DNA of 64,000 nucleotides from Ferrimonas lipolytica (lineage in GTDB: Bacteria > Pseudomonadota > Gammaproteobacteria > Enterobacterales > Shewanellaceae). Below are positions 7,046-47,907 of the stretch, piece by piece. Where the stretch lies: positions 806,001 to 870,000 of the forward strand of contig NZ_CP051180.1 in NCBI RefSeq assembly GCF_012295575.1, given 5' to 3'. Each line of letters starts with the position of its first letter. Position 1 is the stretch's first letter. The notes under the pieces are model-generated. The model worked only from the letters and a program-made list of their open reading frames with translations, ran no database searches and was not told the origin of the DNA. A program made the translations under genes and the position numbers.

Positions 7046-8575
7046 ATGACTGAGCAAACAACCGAACAACAAGAAAAGTCGTACCGGGAATTACACCGCC
7101 CGGCGAGCGAGTTTGATACTCGTTCAGACTATCTTGACCACGAATTGCAGATCATGAAGCCACGTCGCTTCGGTTTGAACCTGCCAGGTCGTGACTTTAA
7201 CTTTGAGTGGGAAGATTTGGTTCCTGCTATCGCTGGTACCATCGGCATTATTGCCATGTACTCCGCCGTAATGATGTCTTGGGCCGAAGGCTTAACTCAA
7301 GCATGGGATCACATTCAATTAGGCAAAGAGTTTGCCATTGAAGTGTCTCGAGTTGAGATGTTGCTACCGGCACTGTTTTTCTGTGTTATCGCCTCTGGTT
7401 TTGTCAATCCCCGGGCCAACCTAGCTGGTAACCACGGACCAATGATCCCCCTCATTGGTGCTATTGCTTTAGCTGGCGCTCATCCTCTGGCGTTAGCCAT
7501 CTTGTTGGGTGTATTTGGCCTGTTGCTGTCCTACTTTAAGGGCGGTTCCCGTTTGGTCAACCTAACCGGTAATGGTGTTGCTGGTGGTCTGTTGGTGTTC
7601 CTTGGTTTCTCCGGTGCGATGAGCCAAATTGGTAACATTCAAAACTGGGCAACAGGTATCGTGCCTGATGGCGGCGCTGCTGGCGACATGGGTTACGTTG
7701 GCCTAGTGGTACTGGCTGCTGTCATTGTGTTGTATGCGCTATTGGCTCGATTGGGTAAGCGTTGGTTGGCTATTCCGGCCTGTGCCACTGCGGGCTTAGT
7801 GATTGCATTAGCATTAGGCGCTGGCTTTGATCTTAAATTCGAAACCGAAATGGGTCTGCCAAACCTTAACCCAGTCTATTGGTGGGGTTCGACTACTGAA
7901 GGTTGGATGCTAGGTCTGCCTAATCTGCAGCACTTCTTAGCGTCACTGCCGTTTGCAATCCTTGCGGTAGCGATGTGGTCGCCTGACTTCTTAGGTCACC
8001 GTATCTTCCAAGAGCTGAACTACCCGAAAGGTACCGAAAAGGTATTGATGGATGTTGATGACACCATGACCATGTGTTCTATTCGCCAAATGGTGGGTAC
8101 AGCACTGGGCGGCGGTAATATCACGTCCTCTTGGGGTACTTACATGATCCCTGCGGCAATTGCGAAACGTCCTATCCCTGGTGGTGCAATCCTGTTGGGT
8201 CTGTTGACCATGACCGTTGCAATCCTTGGTTCACCAATGGACGTAGCGGTTTGGCCACCGGTAATGCGCGTTGCCTTGTTAGTGGGGGTGTTCTTACCAC
8301 TGCTTGAAGCTGGTGTGCAGATGATCCAAGACGAGAAAGACGCTCAAGCCGCAGGTATCTGTGTCTTTGCTGCGGCGGTTACCAACCCCGTATTGGCTTG
8401 GGCATTGACCATGTTGTTGGATAACAACGGCTTAATTGGCGACAAGAATCGTCCAAGCAAGCTGTCAAAACTGGACCGGATCATCATCCCTGCGTCAGTG
8501 TTGATTATCTGTTTCGCGGCGATGCTCGCTGTTGGTATGTTAGAGTCTAAGTGGGGGATCCCTGCACTGCTGTAA
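7046..8575 (+). CDS. DUF3360-family polytopic membrane protein (putative permease)
   Basis: The 509-residue protein has an acidic cytoplasmic N-terminus of about 60 residues, then about 12 hydrophobic segments (for example DLVPAIAGTIGIIAMYSAVM, GVFGLLLSYF, ALTMLL). The sequence agrees with what I recall of DUF3360 proteins of Vibrio and Shewanella relatives, a family of unknown substrate. GNHGPMIPLIGAIALAGAHP and SWGTYMIPAAIAKRP look like re-entrant or pore motifs. The open frame begins at 6983, but the ATG at 7046, after ACGGAG, starts the conserved hydrophilic region. A strong terminator follows, and a palindromic operator candidate lies upstream. Confidence 0.75.
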   Translation: MTEQTTEQQEKSYRELHRPASEFDTRSDYLDHELQIMKPRRFGLNLPGRDFNFEWEDLVPAIAGTIGIIAMYSAVMMSWAEGLTQAWDHIQLGKEFAIEVSRVEMLLPALFFCVIASGFVNPRANLAGNHGPMIPLIGAIALAGAHPLALAILLGVFGLLLSYFKGGSRLVNLTGNGVAGGLLVFLGFSGAMSQIGNIQNWATGIVPDGGAAGDMGYVGLVVLAAVIVLYALLARLGKRWLAIPACATAGLVIALALGAGFDLKFETEMGLPNLNPVYWWGSTTEGWMLGLPNLQHFLASLPFAILAVAMWSPDFLGHRIFQELNYPKGTEKVLMDVDDTMTMCSIRQMVGTALGGGNITSSWGTYMIPAAIAKRPIPGGAILLGLLTMTVAILGSPMDVAVWPPVMRVALLVGVFLPLLEAGVQMIQDEKDAQAAGICVFAAAVTNPVLAWALTMLLDNNGLIGDKNRPSKLSKLDRIIIPASVLIICFAAMLAVGMLESKWGIPALL

Positions 8576-42257: not shown

Positions 42258-42284
42258 AACCCCGCTGATATGCGGGGTTTGTTG
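42258..42284 (+). terminator. Intrinsic terminator after the small membrane protein
   Basis: AACCCCGC / GCGGGGTT with loop TGATA or similar, followed by TGTTGT. It isolates the riboswitch operon from upstream transcription. Confidence 0.75.
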
Positions 42285-42315: not shown

Positions 42316-42345
42316 TTGCTCCAGATCACATCTTATCTATATACT
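42316..42345 (+). promoter_or_regulatory. Sigma70-type promoter of the thiamine operon
   Basis: TTGCTC (-35) and TATACT (-10, 42340-42345) are 18 bp apart. The predicted start about 42351 coincides with the 5' edge of the TPP riboswitch. Confidence 0.5.
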
Positions 42346-42350
42346 TGCCG

Positions 42351-42455
42351 CTGCCACGGGGTGTGCACAGCAGATTAACTGATTGCTGACTGAGATCCGC
42401 ATTAGCGGGAACCCGTAGAACCTGATCCGGATAGTACCGGCGTAGGAATGGCTGC
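42351..42455 (+). ncRNA. TPP riboswitch (THI element)
   Basis: The conserved THI-box blocks occur in order: GGGGTG-type start (GGGGTGTGC), CTGAGA (42390-42395), ACCC, GAACCTGATCCGG, AGTACCGGCGTAGGAA. The closing P1 stem GCCA / TGGC is at 42353-42356 and 42449-42452. The aptamer binds thiamine pyrophosphate and turns off the following genes. No clear intrinsic terminator lies between it and the receptor gene, so control may be at translation or by Rho. An ATG at 42448 lies inside the aptamer and is not the gene start. Confidence 0.93.
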
Positions 42456-42564
42456 TGATTTTAGTTGCATTACGGTTGCCGCAAATGCAGCACAGATCCG
42501 CTCAATTCTTTACCCTCACTGCTCTGTCCGATCGCACGTTTTGTTAACAAGTGGATGTTATAAC

Positions 42565-44676
42565 ATGCGACGCTCTATTATTGCTTTGGCTGTAGTTTCT
42601 TCATTGGCCATCGCCCAAGAACAACCGATTGAAACCATTACTGTTACCGCAGATCTGCGTAACATCGAACTAAACCAGCTGCCTGGTTCTGCCACTGTTA
42701 TCGACGAAGTTCAGCTTCAAGATGAAGGCGGTGAGCACTTTGAACAGATCCTCGATAATATCCCCAACCTTAACTGGTCTGGCGCTACCTCGCGTCCGCG
42801 TTACTTCCAGATCCGCGGTGTTGGTGAGCAAGAGGAATATCAAGGGGCACCGAATAGCTCCGTTGGCTTTATTGTTGATGATATCGACTTATCCGGGTTG
42901 GGCATGGCGGCGAGCCTGTACGATCTCGAGCAGGTTGAAGTGTTGCGCGGCCCGCAAGGCACTCAATATGGTGCCAACGCACTGGCTGGTCTTATCTATG
43001 TGAAAAGCCAAGACCCAACCGAAGCGGTAGAGTCGGGTATCAGCGTCACCTTGGCAGAAGACAGTCAGCAAACCTACGGTGGTTACGTTTCTGGTGCCTT
43101 GACCGATAGCCTTAGCGCTCGGACCGTGTTTCACCTCAACCAGCAAGATGGCTTTCGCGATAACCAATACCTAGGCAAAGACGACACCAACAAGCGCGAT
43201 GAATTGACCTTCCGTACCAAGTTGTTATGGCAGCCGACAGACAGTTTTGATGCCAAGCTGACCTTCCTTCATGCCAATCTCGACAATGGCTACGATACTT
43301 GGACCTTGGACAACAATGGTTACAATAGTTCGAGCGACGAGCCTGGTGAAGACTCGCAGCGCACGAACGGTGCCTCGCTCAATATGCGCTTTGGTGTTAA
43401 TGACAAGATGTCGCTGCGTACCATTACCAGTTGGACTAATACCCACGCAACTAACTCATTTGATGGTGACTGGTCTAACCCAGACTATTGGAGCGGCAAA
43501 GAGTGTGATGATTATGCTGGCGGCACTGAAGCGTGCCAATATGATTACACTTGGGCGAAAGATCAGCAGCGTGACACCTTAAGCCAAGAGATCCGTTTGA
43601 GTTCGGAAGAAGCAGGGCGGATCTTTGCCGGCAGCACCGACTGGTTAGTTGGCATCTACGGCAGTCGCCTGCGCGAGACTAACGATCTTGAAAGCTTCTA
43701 CAATGGCTTTACTGATGAGATGTTAAAGTCCGATTTTGAATCGGAAAGCGTTGCAATATTTGGTCAGTTAGATAGTGAACTGGGCAAATGGTTACTCTCT
43801 TTTGGGTTGCGTTTCGAACATCGAGACGTTGAATATAAAGATGATTCCGGTGAAGACTTTGCGCCAGATGAAGACATGTGGGGTGGTCATATCTCGGCGA
43901 CTTATCGCTGGAACGATCAACACAACAGCTACGTTCGAGTGGCTCGTGGCTATAAAGCCGGTGGCTTTAATATGGGCCTACCGGACTATTTGACCACCAA
44001 TACCGAGTACGACTCTGAAACTCTCTATAACTACGAAATTGGCCTAAAGAGCACTTGGCTCGATGGCGATCTACGTAGCAATGTTTCACTGTTCTATATG
44101 GACCGGAAAGACCAACAGGTTGAAGCATCAATTCAAGACCCAGAGGATCCGCAGCGCTTCATTCTTTATACCAATAACGCCACCGATTCGAGTAACTACG
44201 GTGCTGAGATTGAGCTGAGCTATCAACTGCATCGTAACTTGGAACTGCATGGCAGCGCGGGGTGGCTAGAGACCGAATACGATGATTACGTGGTTCAGCT
44301 GAGTGAAACTGAATCTCGTGACCTATCTGGTCGTGACTTGGCTCATGCGCCGAATTACCAGTTTGCTATTGGCGCGACCTACCGTAACGATCAAGGTTGG
44401 TTTGCCAATGTAAACCTGAGTGGTAAAGATGAGTTTTATTACTCAGACACCAATGACTCCACTTCTGACTCCTACCAAGTACTTGATGCTAAAGTAGGCT
44501 ACGAAGCAAGCGACTGGTCGGTGTACGTCTGGGGACGTAACCTTACCGATGAAGAGTATGGCGTCCGCGGCTTCTACTTCGGCAATGAACCGGATCTCGG
44601 TTGGGCCGACAAACAGTACATTCGCTACGGTGATCCGCAGCAACTTGGCGTAACCTTTAACTACCACTTCATGTAA
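42565..44676 (+). CDS. TonB-dependent receptor, probable thiamine uptake
   Basis: A 703-residue outer-membrane receptor. It has a signal peptide (MRRSIIALAVVSSLAIA), a TonB box-like ETITVTA (23-29), a plug (residues about 40-150: SATVIDEVQ, VEVLRGPQGTQYGANAL) and a 22-strand barrel ending in VTFNYHFM. The plug and barrel alone do not reveal a substrate. Control by a TPP riboswitch and the downstream thiamine genes make thiamine or a phosphorylated or precursor form likely. The ATG at 42565 is chosen because it starts the signal peptide. Confidence 0.9.
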   Translation: MRRSIIALAVVSSLAIAQEQPIETITVTADLRNIELNQLPGSATVIDEVQLQDEGGEHFEQILDNIPNLNWSGATSRPRYFQIRGVGEQEEYQGAPNSSVGFIVDDIDLSGLGMAASLYDLEQVEVLRGPQGTQYGANALAGLIYVKSQDPTEAVESGISVTLAEDSQQTYGGYVSGALTDSLSARTVFHLNQQDGFRDNQYLGKDDTNKRDELTFRTKLLWQPTDSFDAKLTFLHANLDNGYDTWTLDNNGYNSSSDEPGEDSQRTNGASLNMRFGVNDKMSLRTITSWTNTHATNSFDGDWSNPDYWSGKECDDYAGGTEACQYDYTWAKDQQRDTLSQEIRLSSEEAGRIFAGSTDWLVGIYGSRLRETNDLESFYNGFTDEMLKSDFESESVAIFGQLDSELGKWLLSFGLRFEHRDVEYKDDSGEDFAPDEDMWGGHISATYRWNDQHNSYVRVARGYKAGGFNMGLPDYLTTNTEYDSETLYNYEIGLKSTWLDGDLRSNVSLFYMDRKDQQVEASIQDPEDPQRFILYTNNATDSSNYGAEIELSYQLHRNLELHGSAGWLETEYDDYVVQLSETESRDLSGRDLAHAPNYQFAIGATYRNDQGWFANVNLSGKDEFYYSDTNDSTSDSYQVLDAKVGYEASDWSVYVWGRNLTDEEYGVRGFYFGNEPDLGWADKQYIRYGDPQQLGVTFNYHFM

Positions 44677-44687
44677 GGAAAGCGACT

Positions 44688-44948
44688 ATGCAGTTAAGTG
44701 TCGAAATTAGCCTTTACCCATTGCAGGATAACTACTTAGAGATCATTAAGTGGTTTATCGATCGTGTTGACGCCTACCCAGACGTACAACGACTTACCAA
44801 CGGCATGAGCACCCAGCTTGGCGGCGATTACGACGTGGTGATGGCGTTGTTGGCAACCGAGATGAAAGCGGCTCATCAGCAGTGGGGCCGTGGTGTGTTT
44901 GTCTGCAAGTTTATTCCTGGCGGGGTTAATCTTGACCACAGTGAGTGA
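44688..44948 (+). CDS. Small Thiamine_BP/YkoF-like protein
   Basis: An 86-residue ferredoxin-like protein resembling the MTH1187/YkoF (PF01910-type) family, in which B. subtilis YkoF binds thiamine or its pyrimidine part. Visible are the first strand VEISLYPL, then RLTNGMSTQLGGDYD and the C-terminal FVCKFIPGG. There is no signal peptide, so it is cytoplasmic. It lies between the receptor and the PnuT-like permease and overlaps the latter, which supports a thiamine-handling role. Confidence 0.8.
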   Translation: MQLSVEISLYPLQDNYLEIIKWFIDRVDAYPDVQRLTNGMSTQLGGDYDVVMALLATEMKAAHQQWGRGVFVCKFIPGGVNLDHSE

Positions 44949-45579
44949 TTGGTTAAGCGGCATCTTGGCAGATGCCGCTATCATGACCGGTTGGGAAGCG
45001 GTAGCGGTGGTGCTAGCAATTGCTTATCTCTTGTTAGCCATGAAACAAAGTCTGTGGTGTTGGGCTGCTGCGGCCATAAGTACCACGATATACATTGTCC
45101 TGTTTTGGCATGTAAGCCTGTTGATGGAGTCTGCACTGAGCATTTTCTATCTAGTGATGGCCGCTGTTGGTTTTTATCAATGGCGTTTTGGTGGTAATCG
45201 GGGCGAAGGTACCCCATTGATCCGCTGGAGTGTTAACAAACACCTTAGTGTTATTGGTACCACCGCACTGCTAGGCATTGGCTTGGGTTACGTTATGGCG
45301 ACTCAAACCTCCGCTGATTTTGCCTATCTTGATGCGCAAACCACCTGTTTTGCCGTGGTTGGCACCTGGATGTTGGCGAAGAAAGTGGTTGAGAATTGGT
45401 TGTATTGGGTGGTGATCGACTTAGTCTCTATCTACCTCTATTTCAACAAAGGATTAATGCTTACTTCTGCCTTGTTTGTCGCCTATGTGGTGCTGGCATA
45501 CATCGCTTATCGCCAGTGGCAGCAACAGTTAGAACAACAGCAAAACCAGCCGAATGACGGTCAACTTAACCCAGCCTAA
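44932..45579 (+). CDS. pnuT: PnuC-family permease, PnuT-like thiamine transporter
   Basis: The product has about seven membrane segments in the PnuC arrangement (for example SLWCWAAAAISTTIYIVLF, AAVGFYQWRFGG, NWLYWVVIDLVSIYLYFNKG). PnuT members move thiamine by facilitated diffusion coupled to phosphorylation. The frame is open from 44890, but I take the TTG at 44932, six bases after GGGG, which overlaps the previous gene by 17 bp; GTG at 44941 is the alternative. The TPP riboswitch and kinase neighbours select PnuT over the nicotinamide riboside form PnuC. Confidence 0.85.
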   Translation: MTTVSDWLSGILADAAIMTGWEAVAVVLAIAYLLLAMKQSLWCWAAAAISTTIYIVLFWHVSLLMESALSIFYLVMAAVGFYQWRFGGNRGEGTPLIRWSVNKHLSVIGTTALLGIGLGYVMATQTSADFAYLDAQTTCFAVVGTWMLAKKVVENWLYWVVIDLVSIYLYFNKGLMLTSALFVAYVVLAYIAYRQWQQQLEQQQNQPNDGQLNPA

Positions 45580-46393
45580 AATGATGTGGCATCAAGCGAT
45601 GCCACATATCCCGTTGCAACATATCGAACCGCTTAACGGTGCCACCGTAAACCAATTGTTTTTGGTTACCGCCGATGGCCGTCAATGGGTGCTGCGGTTG
45701 CATGCCGCTGCTGCTGTGGTTGATAGAATTCAAGAGCGAGAACAATGGTACTTGGCTGCTGCCGCTGGCCTTGCACCAGAGTTACATTATTGGTCAGCTG
45801 ATAACGGCTTTTGCATCAGCGAACTTGGCGGTTCTAACCCTAACAAACTAGAGTCAGCCCCGTTGCTGCGGTTACTTAATAGGTTGCACCAATTAGCCCC
45901 GATAACGCCACCAATAAGCTATTGCGATCAGATAGAGCGCTACCTTAGCGGCGTGAGTAGTGCCCCTTTAGCTCAGTGGCTGGCGCTACAGCAACAGTGG
46001 CAACAACAACTATACCGCAGTGAGCTAGCCCCCTGTTTTTGTCATCATGATCTTCACGCAGGCAATATCCTTGAGCGGCAACAACATTATCTCGCCATCG
46101 ATTTCGAGTATGCCTCATTTGGCCATCCACTGTTTGATGTCGCGGTGGCACGTGCACAGTTACCAATTGAGCAGCAACAGCAATTCGTTGTTGAGTACTA
46201 TGCTCTGCGTCAATTGCCATACACAGCTAACGAACAGCGAGCTTTGCGAGCGGCGACCGCGCTGTGGCACCTGACTAACTGCGCTTGGTCATTGGCGCAA
46301 CTCCATCAAGTCGGGACACATTCAGATACAGTCGCGATAAATAAATGGTGTAAAAACAGCAAGGATTGGCTTAGCTTGAATATGGTTAGCTGA
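45554..46393 (+). CDS. Phosphotransferase of the thiamine/choline kinase family
   Basis: The 279-residue protein has the aminoglycoside-phosphotransferase fold: GATVNQLFLVTADGRQWVLR (nucleotide loop and Lys/Arg region), the Brenner motif CHHDLHAGNIL with catalytic Asp and Asn, and AIDFEYAS for the metal Asp. It is most simply a thiamine kinase (ThiK-like), since the gene overlaps pnuT by 26 bp and lies in the TPP-controlled unit; in E. coli thiK lies in the hinT-ycfL cluster found just upstream here. Substrate identity is inference. The start is uncertain, as no good Shine-Dalgarno is visible. Confidence 0.8.
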   Translation: MTVNLTQPKMMWHQAMPHIPLQHIEPLNGATVNQLFLVTADGRQWVLRLHAAAAVVDRIQEREQWYLAAAAGLAPELHYWSADNGFCISELGGSNPNKLESAPLLRLLNRLHQLAPITPPISYCDQIERYLSGVSSAPLAQWLALQQQWQQQLYRSELAPCFCHHDLHAGNILERQQHYLAIDFEYASFGHPLFDVAVARAQLPIEQQQQFVVEYYALRQLPYTANEQRALRAATALWHLTNCAWSLAQLHQVGTHSDTVAINKWCKNSKDWLSLNMVS

Positions 46394-46425: not shown

Positions 46426-47265
46426 GTGCAGCGCGGACTAATAGTAGCCATTTTGTTGATTTTCCTTGCCGGATGCTCGGCTCGATTTGTCTATAACTGG
46501 ATGGATTGGATTGTGCCTTGGGAAGTTGATGATTATGTCGATTTAAGCCGTGATCAAACTAAGGCGCTGGATCAACTGATTGAGTCAACCTTAGCATGGC
46601 ACCGAGTTAATGAGCTGCCCCAATACGTACAACACATTGATGATCTTGAAGCGGCGTTAGAGCAACCGATGACGCCTGAACGAGTACAGAGCCAACTCGA
46701 CCGATTCGAAGAGCACTGGAATCGCCTATACCAACACCTCGTTCCTGATGTTATCCCTGCGCTACAAGATCTGACCGATGAACAGGTGCAGCAGATCATC
46801 GACACTGCCCAAGATGAAGAGGATGAGTTGCGGCAGGAGTATCAAGATCTCACCATCGACGAGCGGATCGAAAAATCCAATAAATCGATGAAGAAGGGGA
46901 TGAAGAAACGCATCGGCCGTTTGAGCGAGCAACAACAGCAACTGATTGAACAGTTCAACGACAGTCGCCATCGTTCACTCAAAGAGTGGTTTAGCTATCG
47001 CGACCGTTACATGCAACTGTTGATTTTGGGCTTAACAGAGCGGGCTGATAGTGAAAAGTTAGCGCAACGCTTGCGGTTATTATTGATTGATTACGATGAG
47101 CTTAAGTCGCTAGAACATAAAAAGATTCTCGACTTTAATCGACAATTGTTGGTGGTTTATCTAGCGGATATGCACAGTTCGCTCAGCAATAAACAACTAA
47201 AGCGGTTAGTAGAGGACCTCGATTCACTACGAGAGGACTTTATATATCTGCAACGGGCGCAATAA
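46426..47265 (+). CDS. DUF6279 lipoprotein
   Basis: The 279-residue protein has a lipobox (FLAGCSARF) and a long helical body, rich in Gln, Glu and Leu, with RFVYNWMDWIVPWEVDDYVDL near the N-terminus. This is the DUF6279 pattern. The start is GTG at 46426 after AAGGAG. It lies 32 bp after the kinase and may be co-transcribed with the thiamine operon, without obvious functional relation. Confidence 0.75.
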   Translation: MQRGLIVAILLIFLAGCSARFVYNWMDWIVPWEVDDYVDLSRDQTKALDQLIESTLAWHRVNELPQYVQHIDDLEAALEQPMTPERVQSQLDRFEEHWNRLYQHLVPDVIPALQDLTDEQVQQIIDTAQDEEDELRQEYQDLTIDERIEKSNKSMKKGMKKRIGRLSEQQQQLIEQFNDSRHRSLKEWFSYRDRYMQLLILGLTERADSEKLAQRLRLLLIDYDELKSLEHKKILDFNRQLLVVYLADMHSSLSNKQLKRLVEDLDSLREDFIYLQRAQ

Positions 47266-47319: not shown

Positions 47320-47907
47320 ATGACAGCAATTACCCAATTGTGGCACCGTTTTTTTTCTCAAACCCAAGTGGCTGAAGGCTTAGCACCGTTGGCACTACGG
47401 TTATACCTCGCGCCGGTGTTAATGCAGGCCGGCTACAACAAACTCAGTGCCTTTGAAGACACCGCGGCGTGGTTTGGTAACCCAGATTGGGGCTTAGGTT
47501 TGCCCTTTCCTGAGTTGATGACGGCATTGGCTGCCGGTACTGAATTGTTTGGCGGAGCGCTGCTCGTGATTGGCCTATTTACTCGACTGGTGGCGATCCC
47601 AATGATGGTTACCATGTTGGTGGCTGCGTTTGCGGTGCATTGGCAAAATGGCTGGTTAGCGATTGCCGATGCTAGCTCGTGGTTGGCGAATGAGCGCGTA
47701 CTCGACTCGGTTGAAAAGCTAGATCGCGCTAAAGTCATTTTGCAAGAGAACGGCAACTACGATTGGCTAACTAGCTCCGGCAGTGTAGTGGTGTTGAACA
47801 ATGGTATCGAATTCGCCATTACCTATTTTGTTATGCTACTTGCGCTGTACTTTATGGGCGGTGGCAAGTACACCAGTGTGGATTATTACTTAACTCGAAA
47901 GCAGTAA
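47320..47907 (+). CDS. DoxX-family membrane protein
   Basis: The 195-residue protein has four membrane helices with the DoxX signatures LALRLYLAPVLMQAGYNKL and LPFPELMTALAAGTELFGGALLVIGLFTRL (split here), then MVTMLVAAFAVHW. The insert of about 40 residues between helices 3 and 4 carries charged residues. DoxX proteins form redox-linked membrane complexes in some species; the role here is unknown. AAAGGAT precedes the ATG. Confidence 0.85.
   Translation: MTAITQLWHRFFSQTQVAEGLAPLALRLYLAPVLMQAGYNKLSAFEDTAAWFGNPDWGLGLPFPELMTALAAGTELFGGALLVIGLFTRLVAIPMMVTMLVAAFAVHWQNGWLAIADASSWLANERVLDSVEKLDRAKVILQENGNYDWLTSSGSVVVLNNGIEFAITYFVMLLALYFMGGGKYTSVDYYLTRKQ

Follow-up and report, generated by a model that had tools for sequence, protein, structure and literature searches.

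The 64,000-nucleotide window analysed here, that is, the whole stretch of Ferrimonas lipolytica DNA (contig NZ_CP051180.1, positions 806,001 to 870,000), carries a four-gene operon headed by a thiamine pyrophosphate (TPP) riboswitch, whose closest described relatives are loci for thiamine (vitamin B1) uptake. Import by facilitated diffusion followed by trapping through phosphorylation is the known logic of such receptor/permease/kinase sets, and the product of tnr3, the last gene of one of them, is a pyrophosphokinase. According to the passages of PMC5613172 consulted, most Bacteroides genomes carry the TPP riboswitch, the OMthi receptor, PnuT and tnr3 in one operon, and strains that cannot make thiamine require roughly ten times as much of it once OMthi or PnuT is mutated. 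For Shewanella, where thiamine and other riboswitches are described as controlling biosynthesis and/or uptake genes (part of PMC3223726), a TPP riboswitch precedes SO2715 of Shewanella oneidensis (PMC2659441), SO_2715 is placed in a receptor cluster with substrates including thiamin (PMC3400609) and SO2713 is named pnuT, a predicted thiamin transporter (PMC5955497); the passages concerned name the riboswitch, the receptor and the permease, with no mention in them of a small gene or a kinase. A putative B1 receptor named omr1 is also in use (passages of PMC10881298 and PMC12442306), and its specificity is called unclear in the latter. Finally, the ykoFEDC operon of Bacillus subtilis, as presented in parts of PMC5037267, encodes under THI-box control a soluble YkoF-type thiamine-binding protein together with a thiamine transporter; the function of YkoF was stated there, in 2016, to be currently unclear.

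The Ferrimonas operon consists of genes for a TonB-dependent receptor, an 86-amino-acid YkoF-like protein (hereafter YKF), a PnuC-family permease and an APH-fold kinase. We propose, with a probability of about 0.85, that it is a TPP-repressed operon for the uptake and trapping of vitamin B1, in which YKF handles thiamine for the kinase. Like the Bacteroides OMthi-pnuT-tnr3 operon, it combines a TPP riboswitch, a TonB-dependent receptor and a PnuT-type permease, and it ends with a gene concerned with phosphorylated thiamine; unlike it, that last gene (tnr3 in Bacteroides, termed 'thiamine pyrophosphorylase' in the consulted text of PMC5613172) here encodes a ThiK-like kinase that would depend on ThiL, and a YkoF-like gene is added. 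Riboswitch, receptor and permease are shared with the SO2715/SO2713 locus, as far as the cited parts of PMC2659441 and PMC5955497 describe it. The likeness to ykoFEDC lies in the THI-box control and in a YkoF-type protein encoded with a thiamine transporter, whereas the transporter there is a group I energy-coupling factor (ECF)/ATP-binding cassette (ABC) complex (PMC5037267, in part). A TPP-controlled thiamine operon of Variovorax, by contrast, adjoins biosynthesis genes, and the portion of PMC10409787 consulted identifies no ykoFEDC genes there. No paper joining a YkoF-type gene with PnuT was found in the open-licence PMC literature.

An earlier note, made from the letters of the window, had held the set not to be a textbook arrangement. 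In its main parts the arrangement is not new, riboswitch, receptor and permease being known from S. oneidensis and Bacteroides. The system is real, of a known kind and largely explained; it is conserved across the family and partly annotated. Its less ordinary parts are the kinase and the highly conserved YKF, the sole survivor in one relative. The points of lasting interest seem to be the regularity with which YKF accompanies the permease, the ThiK-like kinase, and an auxotrophic background in which their functions can be tested.

The riboswitch and the operon

The aptamer (THI element) occupies positions 42347-42465 of the forward strand and matches the RF00059 model over all of its 105 positions, scoring 66.6 bits (E 7.1e-11) where the gathering score is 54.3, so that the complete THI-box aptamer of the earlier note is borne out. 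It is the sole TPP riboswitch found in the window's genome. Such calls rest throughout on Rfam searches, a regular-expression THI-box scan having overlooked real ones (e.g. in locus L058). The promoter proposed in the same note is a weaker case: a consensus scan of the leader region gives no sigma-70 promoter, and what can be read in the sequence is a TTGCTC at 42316 and, directly before the aptamer, a possible -10 box TATACT (42340-42345, forward strand), retained in 7 of 8 aligned Ferrimonas leaders.

Downstream of the aptamer, four genes follow on the same (+) strand, all of them assigned by Pfam domains to the kinds of protein expected by the earlier note. The receptor (42565-44676, ATG at 42565) exceeds the Pfam cut-offs with both its Plug (PF07715, 59.2 bits) and its barrel domain (PF00593, 136.7 bits). 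YKF (44688-44948) is a single-domain YkoF/UPF0045-like protein (PF07615), separated from the receptor gene by 11 bp (44677-44687) and not by the 12 bp given before. The PnuT-like permease lies at 44932-45579 (PF04973, NMN_transporter; 158.6 bits against a gathering score of 27.3) and the ThiK-like kinase at 45554-46393 (PF01636; 63 bits against 23.2). The overlaps of 17 bp (YKF-permease) and 26 bp (permease-kinase) reported earlier depend on the start codons: the first holds with the TTG at 44932 and shrinks to 8 bp with the GTG at 44941, and the second holds with the ATG at 45554 and vanishes with that at 45581. In the near relative L009, an in-frame kinase start also lies inside the permease gene.

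Pathway gaps and the likely substrate

The window's genome (G000; 4.13 Mb, a single contig) gave no match for ThiC, ThiE or thiamine pyrophosphokinase (TPK), and it has ThiL (353 bits); this marine bacterium appears unable to make vitamin B1 itself. Without ThiE, the pyrimidine and thiazole precursors cannot be joined to thiamine phosphate, so intact thiamine and its phosphates should be the only substrates for which the operon is of use in this genome. Furthermore, since TPK is missing and ThiL is present, free thiamine must first become thiamine monophosphate (TMP), which calls for a thiamine kinase, and the operon kinase is the best candidate for that step. This reasoning assumes that the missing genes are not replaced by unrecognised enzymes, and ThiD, ThiG and TenA were not searched for. 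It confines the range of likely substrates more closely than the riboswitch does by itself, and for an APH-fold kinase left unnamed by the curated models it suggests a function that can be tested; the TPP-controlled thiamine salvage of the earlier note is thereby strengthened.

The same pattern recurs in the family. Among its 58 genomes, ThiL is universal, ThiC occurs in 46 and ThiE in 47 at E 0.001 or better (30 above the curated cut-off), and the TPK catalytic domain, whose model matches 7 of 14 control genomes, was found in none. Within the genus, ThiC is missing from one genome of 14, the window's alone. Eleven family genomes are without both ThiC and ThiE; ten of these are near-complete, and all ten keep a TPP riboswitch and YKF in cis, their fetched loci all reading receptor-YKF-permease-kinase.

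This last observation bears on the possibility that the imported compound is not thiamine but a precursor or breakdown product of pyrimidine type, for example hydroxymethylpyrimidine (HMP). YkoF-type proteins recognise the HMP moiety, and most relatives have ThiC and ThiE, so that precursors would be usable there. YKF, moreover, resembles YkoF, listed as B1/HMP-binding in the consulted part of PMC10881298. The window's genome and the nine other near-complete genomes without ThiC and ThiE could not convert a pyrimidine into thiamine, yet they keep the riboswitch and YKF, and the kinase resembles a thiamine kinase; we consider import of HMP to be very unlikely.

The operon kinase carries the motifs HHDLHAGN and IDFEYA, the former fitting the APH-fold pattern HxDx4N that is present in 93 of 94 kinase frames. 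On the thiK model TIGR02721 it scores best of six scanned APH proteins of the window's genome (78.3 bits, the other five at most 34 bits). From its operon context we propose that it works like ThiK, and we do not claim that it belongs to the ThiK family. Several equally good ThiK candidates in this genome look unlikely from the same scan, outside of which two weak partial APH hits remain.

As to the permease, it could in principle be a PnuC for nicotinamide riboside that sits in a thiamine operon by chance. On the NCBIfam PnuC equivalog model it scores above the cut-off (57.7 against 42.45 bits), and its profile matches the PnuC structure 4qtn (E 2.9e-19), while phmmer with the single permease sequence retrieved no solved structure at E 0.01. 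The PnuC name may, however, be a default, there being no PnuT model among the NCBIfam matches. Taken with the TPP riboswitch in cis and the regular presence of YKF and a thiK-like kinase next to it, this makes a nicotinamide riboside carrier very improbable. The assignment to the PnuT (thiamine) branch is contextual, resting on the riboswitch in cis, the kinase and the pathway gaps. The permease is the only PnuC-family member found in the window's genome. A residue rule separating thiamine from nicotinamide riboside permeases was tried and rejected: the Asp that follows WxxW is Asn in PnuC 4qtn, and it is Asn in the family permease of L101 as well.

Conservation of the operon

YKF is present in 57 of the 58 family genomes, the exception being only 62% complete, and in 56 of these 57 a TPP riboswitch lies upstream of it on the same strand within 4 kb. 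The family genomes with the full arrangement of riboswitch, receptor, YKF, permease and kinase would be mostly Shewanella; going by the numbering alone, SO2714 of S. oneidensis would be YKF, and the kinase would be SO2712.

A collection in which each species is represented by a single genome was also scanned and yielded 76 YKF loci, of which 10 belong to the window's genus and 66 to others, including Microbulbifer, Pseudoalteromonas, Rheinheimera, Alishewanella, Catenovulum and Psychrosphaera. Gene order was counted over 96 loci (these 76 and 20 fetched ones, the window's included; 20 short loci, L078-L097, were excluded), with profiles grown from the same loci and seeded by the window's proteins. 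The order receptor-YKF-permease-kinase, for which the earlier note had suggested looking in other genomes, was recovered in 78 of the 96. Sixteen loci (15 of Pseudoalteromonas and one of the small genome G003) have YKF-permease-kinase without the receptor; of the other two, one is cut by a contig end and one holds YKF alone. A receptor homologue precedes YKF in 79 loci, and YKF adjoins the permease in 95. Because all loci were found via YKF, these counts show that YKF implies the permease and not the reverse.

The reverse was put to the test in a sample of 143 Gammaproteobacteria genomes, from which 18 loci were fetched (L150 stood outside the Rfam scan). PnuC-family genes above the cut-off occur in 16 of these genomes and YKF in four; each of the four YKF operons has a TPP riboswitch and a receptor before YKF, and the permease immediately after it. 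The sample also holds a TPP riboswitch directly before a permease with the other parts absent (L143, in G140) and a locus with receptor and permease only (L134). That YKF accompanies every TPP-receptor-PnuT-kinase operon was considered and rejected on account of L141. Since operons without YKF exist, YKF marks a subset of such systems and is not indispensable to them.

It had been held in the earlier note that homologues lying under other regulators with other vitamins would speak against the thiamine assignment. The idea that the operon is run by riboswitches of other vitamins is not borne out: no such riboswitch was found in nine YKF loci (window included) searched against all of Rfam.

A few variant loci may be recorded here. 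In G003 (2.3 Mb), which has ThiE without ThiC, the receptor is gone and the riboswitch (7439-7537 of L098) sits 63 bp before YKF (7600-7860). G016, a genome without ThiC, has a second, weak TPP match (54.4 bits; about 2663-2769 of L100) some 2 kb ahead of the operon's riboswitch, and directly below this match no + strand gene of at least 80 amino acids is listed. In each of three Pseudoalteromonas genomes (L127, L128 and L129), the sole TPP riboswitch has a receptor homologue (778 to 793 bits) close by on the opposite strand, and YKF-permease-kinase stands elsewhere without a riboswitch; in the two of the three that were annotated, the sole TPP riboswitch precedes thiC.

The YkoF-like protein

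YKF passes the Pfam Ykof model (PF07615; 24.5 bits against a cut-off of 21), and a profile of 45 YKF homologues matches B. subtilis YkoF (1s7h, E 8.3e-8; 1s99/1sbr, E 4.5e-7) and also UPF0045 proteins (2eky, E 1.6e-4). In the profile alignment YKF shares SLYP and T-(D/N)-x-x-S-T with YkoF, to which its Tyr10-Pro11 and Thr37...Ser41-Thr42 stretches align. The AlphaFold2 model (pLDDT 83, pTM 0.74) shows one beta-alpha-beta-beta-alpha-beta unit, a fold like that of the UPF0045/TM0486/MTH1187 proteins: its best solved matches (2ibo, 1yqh, 1lxj, 1vk8 and 2eky) are UPF0045/TM0486 proteins, with TM-scores of about 0.5-0.7 and one match below E 0.001 (8.4e-4), and YkoF is not among the best 50 fold matches listed. 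Although this fold matches, YKF stays below the cut-off of the Thiamine_BP/UPF0045 family (PF01910; 16.4 against 24.9 bits) and, unlike the UPF0045 protein MJ1052, which lacks it in the alignment, it has the YP pair also present in YkoF. The architecture of B. subtilis YkoF with two ferredoxin-like repeats (200 amino acids, matched twice by the profile in 1s7h) was not found in YKF, which is one domain of 86 amino acids with one unit. As modelled, its first strand begins at residue 2, so that a signal peptide would not fit in front of it. Support for the fold family is fair, and YKF is probably a vitamin-binding protein; that it binds thiamine, and then buffers or delivers it as the earlier note had it, fits family and fold and is a guess.

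It is worth noting that YKF is the best conserved of the four operon proteins within the genus, with a mean pairwise identity of 83.9%, against 68.8% for the receptor, 67.0% for the permease and 36.4% for the kinase (45 pairs per protein, from the window and nine of the ten genus loci). The genus set includes records titled Ferrimonas marina (L002 = G033), F. balearica (L006 = G027) and F. kyonanensis (L005 = G023). The locus left out, L004, comes from a record titled Marinobacter nauticus that falls in the window's genus, at the same position as G018, and is probably a misnamed Ferrimonas. Ser8, Tyr10, Pro11, Gly46, Gly67 and Lys74 are identical in all 102 YKF rows, some of which are duplicates. 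A set of 14 residues invariant in 45 aligned YKFs cannot be taken as universal, as 8 of the 14 vary somewhere over these 102 rows.

In one genome of the window's genus, G035, the locus has lost riboswitch, receptor, permease and kinase, and YKF alone remains (7249-7509 of L099). The genes that flank the locus are retained on either side; the YKF frame is intact and its start is preceded by AAGGAG, and of the 14 residues that never vary in the alignment of 45 sequences it keeps 11. The loss of the genes on both sides, sparing one gene of 260 bp, suggests that YKF is useful without this importer.

The main rival to a carrier role, as we infer it, is that YKF is a sensor or regulator, which would bind thiamine or its pyrimidine moiety and control the permease, the kinase or another enzyme, in a role independent of uptake. 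YKF-like folds resemble ACT-type regulatory domains. The lone YKF of G035 fits this picture: it persists with its frame, its AAGGAG and those 11 residues in a genome that has ThiC and ThiE, and two of its three changes fall at sites that are also variable in some operon-borne YKFs; the high conservation within the genus points the same way. The lone YKF is known from one genome only, however, where it could be a slowly decaying remnant, and YKF stands directly beside the permease in nearly every locus counted. We regard the sensor as possible and rather doubtful.

Similarly tentative is a wider proposal on YkoF-type proteins in general, namely that they are dedicated intracellular thiamine handlers which were joined independently to two unrelated importers, the ECF-type YkoEDC in Bacillus and PnuT in marine Gammaproteobacteria. 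Single-domain YKF would capture thiamine behind a passive permease and either pass it to the kinase or gate kinase or permease, and, judging by the lone YKF of G035, it would be of use in the absence of uptake too. If true, this would settle what YkoF is for. The operons provide in any case a second, independent setting for a YkoF-type protein (a single domain, one permease gene and one kinase), and natural variants with and without YKF, together with relatives in genetically tractable Shewanella, make its function testable.

Proposed pathway and observations that weigh against it

The uptake and trapping reading rests on computed evidence of five kinds: gene families, riboswitch, gene order, co-occurrence, and the missing and present pathway genes. 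From these we infer each protein's substrate, the ligand and oligomeric state of YKF, and the direction and level of control, as follows. When cellular TPP is low, the leader would permit expression, presumably at the level of translation; this mode of control is conjectural because leader folding alone gave nothing. Powered by TonB, the receptor would then bring thiamine or a thiamine compound over the outer membrane; thiamine would pass the inner membrane by facilitated diffusion through the PnuT-like permease, and the ThiK-like kinase would trap it as TMP. Chromosomal ThiL would make TPP from TMP, thereby closing the loop at the riboswitch. YKF, which would be cytoplasmic and is probably oligomeric, may bind thiamine and hold it for, or hand it to, the kinase, so that little would leak back via the permease when supply is scarce. 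For this strain, with no ThiC or ThiE found, the operon is probably the main source of B1, though thiamine ABC transporters were not searched for.

Several observations weigh against this proposal. First, with regard to control, the leader scan found no terminator after the aptamer, folding of the leader was uninformative (z-score 0.08 against shuffles, the minimum-energy fold being without the aptamer as read), and the Bacteroides PnuT and OMthi transcripts are reported as unresponsive to thiamine in the consulted part of PMC5613172. Second, the kinase falls far below the thiK equivalog cut-off (78.3 against 299.45 bits) and shows the lowest conservation among the four proteins; it comes next in only two of the four YKF operons of the class sample (the window and G238). 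Third, that sample contains a TPP-receptor-permease-kinase operon without YKF (L141, in G116) and two permease-kinase pairs without YKF, receptor or TPP riboswitch (L135 and L147). Fourth, the riboswitch is not always at hand: among the 42 of the 66 non-genus loci whose genomes were searched for it, riboswitches being placed by coordinates, 27 have one in cis and 15 do not. Twelve of these 15 are Pseudoalteromonas loci, which are also without a receptor beside YKF, and three (L036, L060 and L063) have the full gene order; a permissive Rfam search of these three and of two Pseudoalteromonas loci still found no TPP riboswitch.

Two of the class-sample operons differ at the place of the kinase. 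In G152, the gene standing there has no Pfam match. G101 has a gene with a weak likeness to APH (2695-3579 of L137; 22.3 bits, the cut-off being 23.2), which is convergent to the permease and not in the operon.

Neighbouring features

Between the upstream gene and the operon, a terminator-like hairpin on the forward strand (42258-42279; eight pairs and a T-rich tail, by consensus match only) probably marks the operon boundary. Directly downstream of the operon, at 46426-47265 of the window, lies a DUF6279 lipoprotein-like gene, found in the same place in 4 of 6 compared loci, G035 included. It is followed at 47320-47907 by a gene for a DoxX protein of the HvfX family (238.9 bits against a cut-off of 80), which is linked to the maturation of copper-binding ribosomally synthesised and post-translationally modified peptides (RiPPs); 5 of the 6 compared loci have a homologue of it on the downstream side of the operon, about 4 kb off in one of them.

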